From contig JAJSAI010000010.1 in assembly GCA_024274695.1 (NCBI GenBank), positions 1 through 40,653 of the forward strand: a DNA stretch of 40,653 nt. Direction: 5' to 3'. Below are positions 22,130-24,970 of this stretch, one piece after another. The translations under genes and the position numbers were made by a program. Below the pieces are notes generated by a model. It worked only from the letters and a program-made list of their open reading frames with translations. It was not told the DNA's origin and made no database searches. Numbering within the stretch: position 1 is the first letter of the stretch; the number at the start of each line of letters is the position of its first letter. Origin of the DNA: an archaeon (lineage in GTDB: Archaea > B1Sed10-29 > JAJSAI01).

Positions 22130-22207
22130 TGGTAGCGGGGAGAGGATTTGAACCTCCGACCTCGGGGTTATGAGCCCCGCGGGCACTCCTGGCTGCCCTA
22201 CCCCGCT
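22130..22207 (-). tRNA. initiator tRNA-Met (CAT), CCA encoded
   Basis: AGCGGGGTAGGGCAGCCAGGAGTGCCCGCGGGGCTCATAACCCCGAGGTCGGAGGTTCAAATCCTCTCCCCGCTACCA; complete cloverleaf; GGG/CCC anticodon stem as in archaeal initiator tRNA. Confidence 0.95.
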
Positions 22208-22281
22208 GTCACGCAAAGAACAGAGCCAGAACATTATATCACTCTAATCCTTTAAAAACATTGCCCGCGCATATACTCTTC

Positions 22282-22349
22282 AGGGGAATGAGGAGTTCAG
22301 TCTTATCCGAACGGCGGAGCATGAGGATAGACGGGCGGCCTGACCCCCT
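22282..22349 (+). ncRNA. putative C/D box guide sRNA
   Basis: AGGGGA [C ATGAGGA] GTTCAGTCTTAT [D' CCGA] ACGGCGGAGC [C' ATGAGGA] TAGACGGGCGGC [D CTGA] CCCCCT; terminal stem AGGGG/CCCCT; TATA-like TTTAAAAAC ~30 bp upstream. Confidence 0.7.
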
Positions 22350-22378: not shown

Positions 22379-24970
22379 TCAGATGTTCCTCCCGTACCCT
22401 TCTTCCAGGGGCACTGCCTTCATTATGATCCAGGTCAGCGCTATTCCTGTCAGCAGGCCCAGGAGCACGAACCCTCCTATTGCCGCGAGCTGGGCTATTG
22501 TGAGCGGCACGACACCGAACAGGCCCGTGAGGGGCGGGAAGTAAAGTACCAGCAACTGCATCCCGACAGAAACCGCCAGGGCTATGTCAAGCCACTTGTT
22601 CGCAAAGTAGGGCATTCCTTCTTCGTACCTTATCACGAACAGTCTCACGAACTCGTAGAACACGAACCCGGTGAAGGCCATGGTCTGGGCTGTCTTCGGT
22701 CCCCAGAGCATCAGTCCGACGAAGAACGTTAGCAGGATCATCAGTGCTTTCTTCGTTCCTATGACGAAGATCATCCACTTGAGCCTCTTGTCTACAACAC
22801 CCACTCTCTTGTCATGGGGCTTTCTTTTCATGACGTCCCTTGGGACTGGGTCCACTCCAAGGGTGAGGGCTATGGGACCGTCCGTGAGCAGGTTTATCCA
22901 CAGTAGCTGCGGGGCTGTCACGAGCAGGAGCCCGGAGGAAATGGACGCGAAGAACACTGAGATGACTTCCCCGACATTGCACGTTAGCAGGTAGTTCACG
23001 AACTTCCTGATGTTGTTGAATATTGTCCTGCCCTGTTTTATAGCCTCTTCTATCGTGGCGAAGTTGTCGTCCAAGAGTATCATGTCAGCAACTTCTCTTG
23101 AGACATCGCTTCCCCTGATGCCCATTGCTATTCCAACGTCAGCAGCCTTGAGCGCGGGAGCGTCGTTCACCCCGTCTCCTGTCACGGCCACCGAGTTACC
23201 GTGCTCCTGGAGCACTTTCACTATCCTGTACTTGTCAGCAGAGCTCGCTCTTGCCACCACGTCAACCGTTTCCAGGGCCCTGACAAGCTCTTTGTCGTTC
23301 ATCTTCTGAACGTCCGCTCCTGTTATCCCGTTTCCCTTGAGCCCGACCATCCTGGCTATTGTTACTGCCGTCTTAAGATGGTCTCCTGTGACCATTATCA
23401 CCTTTATGCCAGCGTTCTGGCACTCCCTTATTGCTCCTGGAACCTCTTTCCTGGGAGGGTCGAGCAGGGCTATGAGCCCGAGGAACACGAGCCCGTCTTC
23501 AGGCTCTTTTTTGTCCTTTGCCTTCTTGTACGCGAGCGCGAGGACCCTGTAACCTTTTCCGGCGAGCGCGTCGTTCTCTCTTATTATCTTCTCCGCGGAT
23601 TTCTTGTCAAGCCTTTTCTTCTTCCCGTTGACCATCACCCACTTGCTCTTCTCAAGAATCCTTTCAGGAGCCCCTTTGGTGAAGTAGTAGTACTCCCTGT
23701 TCTTCCTGGTTATCACTGTCATCATTTTCCTGTCAGAAGAAAAGGGTATCTCGCCCACCTTTTCCATCCTCTCGGAACCGATGTCCTGACAGGCTTCTAT
23801 TATGGCGATTTCTGTCGGGTCGCCTACCATCCTCCCTCCTGTCCGGATGACGTCATGACAGTGCAGGCCCACGGCCGCGATCATCCTGGCCGTCTCGCTC
23901 TTCTTGTCAAGCTTTTTCTTTTCCTTCCAGTCGTAGTACACTGCCACTGCTTTCATCCTGTTTTCGGTCAGGGTTCCTGTCTTGTCAGTGAGTATTATGT
24001 TAACGCTCGCCAGCCCTTCCACTACAGGAAGTTTTCTGACGAGAGCGTTCTTTTTCACCATCCGCTTCGTCCCGAGGGCCAGGGCGAGAGTGCTCACCGC
24101 GGGAAGGCCTTCTGGGACCGCTGCAACGGCAAGGCTGACGGACACTAGCAGCACCTGCAGTGGTTCCATTCCCTGGGCCAGGAGCACTCCTGCCATGACA
24201 ACCGTGCCTGCTATTATGGCCTTCCCTATTTTCTTCCCGAGAACGTTCATCTCCACCTGGAACGGGGTGAGAGAGTCTCTGGCCTCCTGTATCTTTCCAG
24301 CAATCCTGCCTATTTCCGTGTTCATTCCTGTTTCAACAACGACTGCTACAGCCTTTCCTTTGACCACGCTTGTCCCGGAGTACAGCATGTTCTTCCTGTC
24401 GGCCAGGGGTGTTTTCAGGGGCAGTACTCCTGCTTCCTTGGCTTCGGGAACACTTTCCCCGGTCAGGATGCTCTCGTCAGCCACGACCCCCTGTTCTTCT
24501 ATTATCCTGCAGTCAGCGGGGACCACGTCCCCTTGTTCTACTATTATGATGTCTCCTGGAACGAGTTCGGCCGCGTCAATTATCTTTTCCCTGCCGTTCC
24601 GCCTGACTATCGCCCGCTTTCTGACCATCTTCTTGAGCATTTCAATGCTCTTCTCCGCGTTATAGTCCTGCCAGAACCCGAGCACTCCGTTCAAGCCGAC
24701 GATTGTTATTATGAGGCCGGCGTCAGTGGCCTGTCCCACGAGCCCGGCGATGATCGCGGAAATGATGAGGACTATTATCAGAAAATCAGTGAACTGGGAC
24801 AAGAAAATGCTCAGCGGGCTGACCTTCTTGTACTCCTTCAGCTCGTTAGGCCCGTACTCTGCAAGCCTTTTTCCAGCTTCTTCCTCGCTCAGGCCCTCGA
24901 GCCCTGAGTCAAGCGCTTTCAGCACTTCTCTTACGCTCATCGCGTGCCATTTCCTGTCGCGCATGACCAT
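22379..24970 (-). CDS. P-type cation-transporting ATPase (Ca2+/SERCA-like, P2A)
   Basis: ILTDKTGTLTENRMK phosphorylation motif, TGES (ILTGESVPE), VTGDGVNDAPALKAADVGIAMG. Confidence 0.96.
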   Translation of the reverse strand: MVMRDRKWHAMSVREVLKALDSGLEGLSEEEAGKRLAEYGPNELKEYKKVSPLSIFLSQFTDFLIIVLIISAIIAGLVGQATDAGLIITIVGLNGVLGFWQDYNAEKSIEMLKKMVRKRAIVRRNGREKIIDAAELVPGDIIIVEQGDVVPADCRIIEEQGVVADESILTGESVPEAKEAGVLPLKTPLADRKNMLYSGTSVVKGKAVAVVVETGMNTEIGRIAGKIQEARDSLTPFQVEMNVLGKKIGKAIIAGTVVMAGVLLAQGMEPLQVLLVSVSLAVAAVPEGLPAVSTLALALGTKRMVKKNALVRKLPVVEGLASVNIILTDKTGTLTENRMKAVAVYYDWKEKKKLDKKSETARMIAAVGLHCHDVIRTGGRMVGDPTEIAIIEACQDIGSERMEKVGEIPFSSDRKMMTVITRKNREYYYFTKGAPERILEKSKWVMVNGKKKRLDKKSAEKIIRENDALAGKGYRVLALAYKKAKDKKEPEDGLVFLGLIALLDPPRKEVPGAIRECQNAGIKVIMVTGDHLKTAVTIARMVGLKGNGITGADVQKMNDKELVRALETVDVVARASSADKYRIVKVLQEHGNSVAVTGDGVNDAPALKAADVGIAMGIRGSDVSREVADMILLDDNFATIEEAIKQGRTIFNNIRKFVNYLLTCNVGEVISVFFASISSGLLLVTAPQLLWINLLTDGPIALTLGVDPVPRDVMKRKPHDKRVGVVDKRLKWMIFVIGTKKALMILLTFFVGLMLWGPKTAQTMAFTGFVFYEFVRLFVIRYEEGMPYFANKWLDIALAVSVGMQLLVLYFPPLTGLFGVVPLTIAQLAAIGGFVLLGLLTGIALTWIIMKAVPLEEGYGRNI

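Follow-up and report, generated by a model that had tools for sequence, protein, structure and literature searches.

An archaeal box C/D sRNA gene with guides predicted to direct 16S rRNA methylation at the equivalents of C1402 and probably G902

The locus at 22282-22349 of an archaeal contig is very probably an independently transcribed box C/D sRNA gene whose two guides would direct methylation of 16S rRNA at the equivalents of E. coli C1402 and, probably, G902. The window, meaning the whole 40,653-nucleotide stretch analysed here, is contig 4 of a genome (G000) of 825,026 bases in 32 contigs, and 19 genomes of its class were compared. We observed directly the architecture of the RNA, its conservation, its complementarity to 16S rRNA, the register of that pairing, coevolution with the target, and the presence of fibrillarin and Nop5 genes. 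We infer transcription, RNP assembly, methylation and any benefit to rRNA folding or P-site geometry.

In the proposed mechanism, L7Ae would bind the kink-turns formed by C/D and C'/D', and Nop5 and fibrillarin would assemble on the L7Ae-bound kink-turns. Each of the 12-nt guides would then pair with its stretch of 16S rRNA, and in each duplex fibrillarin would add a methyl group to the 2'-OH of the rRNA nucleotide that faces the guide's fifth base counted back from the D or D' box. For the D guide this would be the counterpart of E. coli C1402 (h44, P site), and for the D' guide it is probably the G at the position of G902 (h27). The same genome encodes both fibrillarin (E=2.2e-84) and Nop5 (Nop, E=9.1e-63), about 1 kb apart.

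Gene structure and conservation

The gene reads, on the plus strand, AGGGGA ATGAGGA gttcagtcttat CCGA acggcggagc ATGAGGA tagacgggcggc CTGA CCCCCT. It lies between the initiator tRNA-Met gene and a P-type ATPase gene (22379-24970, minus strand). Its parts and nearest neighbour are as follows.

22130-22207, minus strand: initiator tRNA-Met (CAT), divergent neighbour outside the sRNA, given as context
22251-22258, plus strand: TATA-like box TTTAAAAA, which precedes the modelled 5' end of the sRNA by 31 nt
22282-22349, plus strand: modelled limits of the double-guide box C/D sRNA gene (59.1 bits with covariance model R1, which includes the window sequence itself)
22283-22286, plus strand: terminal stem 5' arm GGGG, pairing with 22344-22347
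22288-22294, plus strand: C box ATGAGGA (sequence, motif pattern, alignment)
22295-22306, plus strand: D' guide GTTCAGTCTTAT, 12 nt, of which TTCAGTCTT pairs with the genome's own 16S AAGACTGAA
22307-22310, plus strand: D' box CCGA (sequence, homologues, alignment)
22321-22327, plus strand: C' box ATGAGGA (sequence, homologues, alignment)
22328-22339, plus strand: D guide TAGACGGGCGGC, 12 nt, of which GACGGGCGG pairs with 16S CCGCCCGTC
22340-22343, plus strand: D box CTGA (sequence, homologues, alignment)
22344-22347, plus strand: terminal stem 3' arm CCCC (stem covariation)

The layout claimed in a sequence-only reading of the window, with 12 nt between C and D', 10 nt between D' and C' and 12 nt between C' and D, was found in full, as were its ATGAGGA boxes and terminal stem. 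The C, D', C' and D boxes occur in order with the paired GA/AG residues of kink-turns, both guides have the length of about 12 nt expected between C and D' and between C' and D, and the GGGG/CCCC stem closes the terminal kink-turn. The upstream TATA element of that reading is likewise present, and of the 13 class homologues 11 have an A/T-rich TATA-like box at a distance of 24-32 nt upstream.

Searching with a covariance model built from 27 archaeal sequences recovers the sRNA from 13 of the 19 genomes in the class (E<=1.2e-6), and nine of the 13 sequences had no part in building the model. A match in G043 has the same guide ahead of a D' box, with TGATGA after that box; it was not used for the model, as its other half is non-canonical. 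Six class genomes gave no strong match; five of these are 61-81% complete and the sixth, G015, is 87% complete. Across the archaea sampled, 164 of 294 genomes have a match at E<=0.001, although the weak ones may be other C/D RNAs. All 17 strong matches inspected keep a recognisable C1402 guide. In alignment A1, TGA and GA are invariant in the C box, TGA in C' and CTGA at D.

The alignment also shows compensatory change. All four terminal-stem pairs changed on both sides (4/4), with 91.7% of cells paired, and the covariation score of the whole structure was reached by none of 500 shuffles. The variant G of the C' box had been proposed to pair with the variant C of CCGA; counted over the alignment, 8 of the 11 homologues that have G as the fifth C' base have C as the second D' base, and all 12 that have T at that C' base have T at that D' base, although the sequences are not independent of one another.

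Short box motifs do arise by chance, and the locus could in principle be an intergenic stretch that happens to resemble C/D boxes beside a 16S antisense segment. Its C and C' boxes are each one change from the RTGATGA consensus, and its D' box is CCGA. The RNA is not unusually stable, folding alone no better than shuffles by thermodynamic folding (z -0.22), which is as expected for a C/D RNA and makes the folding test uninformative. A looser generic C/D pattern matched the host genome 11 times against 4 in the control, and only one of these matches besides the window gene, C12:23230, has complete architecture. However, homologues with complete architecture occur across archaea, and both the stem and, as described below, four rRNA substitutions are compensated. 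We give a chance origin a negligible probability and, judging from the sequence comparisons, consider it already refuted.

Within the window the four-box composite motif has a single match, and 300 first-order Markov simulations, read on both strands, gave none. The exact half-motif of C', guide and D was found in 15 of 297 archaeal genomes and not at all in the reversed control, and all 15 matches share a single 12-nt guide spacing although five spacings had been allowed. In 85,462 species genomes the exact pattern has 30 matches in archaea and 20 in bacteria. Correctly spaced C and D' boxes stand beside 20 of the 30 archaeal matches but none of the 20 bacterial ones, so the bacterial matches act as a built-in chance control. 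BLAST of a 101-nt region against 100 genomes returned only two partial matches in other genomes.

The match at C12:23230 (L090 about 1501; G000:C12:23230-23258) is another box C/D sRNA of the host genome with all its parts. It reads GCGA-g-ATGAAGA-aatgtacaaccg-CTGA-aagc-GTGATGA-taaaagccgg-CTGA-TCGC, and its D' guide pairs over 10 bp with the genome's own 23S rRNA. The 16S-23S spacer of this genome (L001 3064-3104) also holds a kink-turn-like element, ATGAGGA-hairpin-CTGA.

The D guide and the decoding site

In the genome's own 16S, which contains ACACCGCCCGTCAAG, the segment CCGCCCGTC forms 9 uninterrupted base pairs with the D guide GACGGGCGG. The fifth base before box D faces C1351 of that 16S, the equivalent of E. 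coli C1402. The E. coli numbering of both targets was assigned by hand from conserved sequence, and the h44 and h27 segments of 16S were read on both strands. The 9-nt match and the N-plus-five assignment to C1402 made in the sequence-only reading are thereby confirmed against the genome's own 16S. Site and register stood, but the site is less of a surprise than that reading implied, since archaeal Cm at this position is already known. Cm1376 of P. abyssi, the equivalent of C1402, was seen by cryo-EM, with the modified nucleoside seen by LC-HRMS; it pairs with m6A1469, and the pair holds the start-codon phosphate at the P site (PMC7005279). The equivalent nucleotide is also established as Cm in yeast, human and Arabidopsis (PMC11542601).

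The strongest evidence for this interpretation, as read from the sequences, comes from guide-target coevolution. The 16S segment CCGCCCGTC is near-universal, and three relatives differ from it by rare substitutions: C1400U, C1404U and C1404U plus U1406C. In G009, the 16S CTGCCCGTC goes with the guide GACGGGCAG; in G005, CCGCCTGTC goes with GATAGGCGG; and in G003, CCGCCTGCC goes with GGTAGGCGG. All four rRNA substitutions in these genomes are compensated by guide changes (4/4). G005 and G003 tolerate an additional G.U wobble at 1405. Counting against the reading, G017 and G011, whose 16S is standard, keep an A.C mismatch at the outer-edge guide base two before box D. The coevolution indicates that selection maintains pairing of the guide at the C1402 site, and the comparative support for this RNA is unusually strong.

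The 16S genes of these relatives have features of their own. The altered segments CTGCCCGTC, CCGCCTGTC and CCGCCTGCC (L080, L081 and L131) would mismatch PCR primers placed there. The 16S of G005, a relative of the same order, carries an insertion of ~800 nt (L083 about 620-1455) with an open frame that by eye resembles a helix-turn-helix plus nuclease, and it has a short insertion in h27 (L083 90-145).

The D' guide and its possible targets

The sequence-only reading overlooked a second 16S target. The D' guide forms a 9-bp duplex with AAGACTGAA in h27 of the genome's own 16S, where its N+5 base faces the G equivalent to E. coli G902. The pairing covaries across lineages: the window has TTCAGTCTT against AAGACTGAA, and G098 and G240, whose sRNA is of the same type as the DHVE2/Aciduliprofundum records, have TTCAGCCTT against AAGGCTGAA. 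Within the class the D' guide is not conserved, and relatives bear a different one, so the G902 target comes down to complementarity and this cross-lineage covariation only. Members of the Thermoproteota have yet another D' guide, AATTCCTT, with a target near 16S A915. Because class relatives and Thermoproteota alike swap the D' guide, the D guide is the conserved half of the RNA.

A genuine C/D sRNA might therefore use its D' guide on some other RNA, such as a tRNA, with the G902 pairing a coincidence. For a random 12-mer from the window, the chance of a 9-bp in-register match to the genome's own 16S is 2%, a rate that leaves some room for coincidence; both guides achieve such a match, to the C1402 and G902 equivalents. 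The D' guides of G014 and G016 fit C34 (N+5) of their own tRNA-Leu(CAA), in the anticodon loop ACTCAAGATCC. That of G013 fits C34 of the elongator tRNA-Met, in the anticodon loop ACTCATAGGG of the spliced form and not in the gene sequence; the C34 register and the G013 splice junction were worked out by hand. Guidance of Cm34 in tRNA-Met is already known from sR49 (PMC2584109). The tRNA-Phe of the window was examined as a candidate, given how often the anticodon loop of tRNA-Phe resembles the D' target, and its sequence does not match. DHVE2-type homologues and Rfam sR60, moreover, carry the same D' guide matched to AAGGCTGAA. A different D' target is on balance unlikely, and G902 is the probable one. 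The elongator tRNA-Met gene of G013 (L138; G013:C34:7794-7846) has an intron.

The two 16S targets are ~500 nt apart in sequence and both fall in the decoding core. The RNA might accordingly act chiefly as a chaperone of rRNA folding, forming a bridge between h27 and h44, with methylation secondary at one or both sites, and chaperone roles for such double guides have been proposed by Dennis et al. 2015 (PMC4644070). Yet what the lineages share is the D guide; the D' guide beside it aims at G902 in some, at an A915-like site in others and at tRNA C34 in still others. Conservation therefore does not extend to a fixed h27-h44 bridge, and Cm was directly seen at the C1402 equivalent in P. abyssi. 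A chiefly chaperone role is improbable. Each testable part of the sequence-only reading held, and its interpretation of the locus as a C1402 guide gene is supported.

Neighbourhood, significance and comparison with known systems

In 7 of the 13 class genomes that carry it, the sRNA gene is a neighbour of the gene for initiator tRNA-Met. It is divergent from it in G000, G003 and G005, which is the order in the window, and lies upstream on the same strand in G010, G014, G016 and G017, the two genes abutting in G017. Dicistronic tRNA-sRNA arrangements are known from Nanoarchaeum and others, with the sRNA downstream in the cases described (PMC3491384, PMC7994747). The initiator tRNA-Met genes of G016 (L007/L099) and G014 (L102) have introns and were missed by ARAGORN.

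It is tempting to join these observations into one history, in which the C1402 guide is ancestral and shares common descent with eukaryotic snR70/U43, has been kept across archaea by coevolving with a decoding-site sequence generally regarded as invariant, and is physically linked to the initiator tRNA gene in this DPANN-type class. As a whole we consider this unlikely. Were it true, the P-site tRNA and the guide for the P-site mark would be expressed together.

Ribose methylation of C1402 occurs in all three domains of life; bacteria use proteins for it, eukaryotes enzymes directed by guide RNAs. A specific predicted C1402 guide gene is now given for a deep, reduced-genome archaeal lineage, and the genomes surveyed suggest that RNA-guided Cm1402 may be widespread in archaea.

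Against Rfam, the window RNA has no match at the gathering threshold. The archaeal, Pyrococcus-type family sR2 (RF01139) scores 18.7 bits on it (E 0.02) against a gathering threshold of 42, but a homologue found with our model (L167, in G156), with the D guide GATGGGCGA, scores 55.1 against that same threshold. The window RNA differs from sR2 in its ATGAGGA and CCGA boxes, its 10-nt spacer between D' and C' and its D' guide. The archaeal family sR60 (RF01309) scores 27.2 bits (E 5.5e-5) against a threshold of 50. It shares the C box AUGAGGA and a D' guide, GUUCAGCCU, with a G902-type target, whereas its D guide differs and is not directed at C1402. The covariance model built here would annotate RNAs that Rfam's current families miss.

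The snR70/U43 snoRNAs of eukaryotes target the equivalent nucleotide, a likeness of target site; eukaryotic C'/D' motifs are poorly conserved. Yeast snR70 guides 18S Cm1639, and human U43 guides Cm1703. In Arabidopsis, U43 (AtU43) guides 18S Cm1645, with yeast Cm1639 and human Cm1703 as the equivalent sites (PMC11542601). Bacterial RsmI and RsmH (m4Cm1402) act on the same nucleotide, including its ribose, but they are protein-only, work without a guide RNA and add N4 methylation. The window RNA is not a new kind: its class is textbook, its site is shown in P. abyssi (Cm1376), and an archaeal relative scores as sR2.
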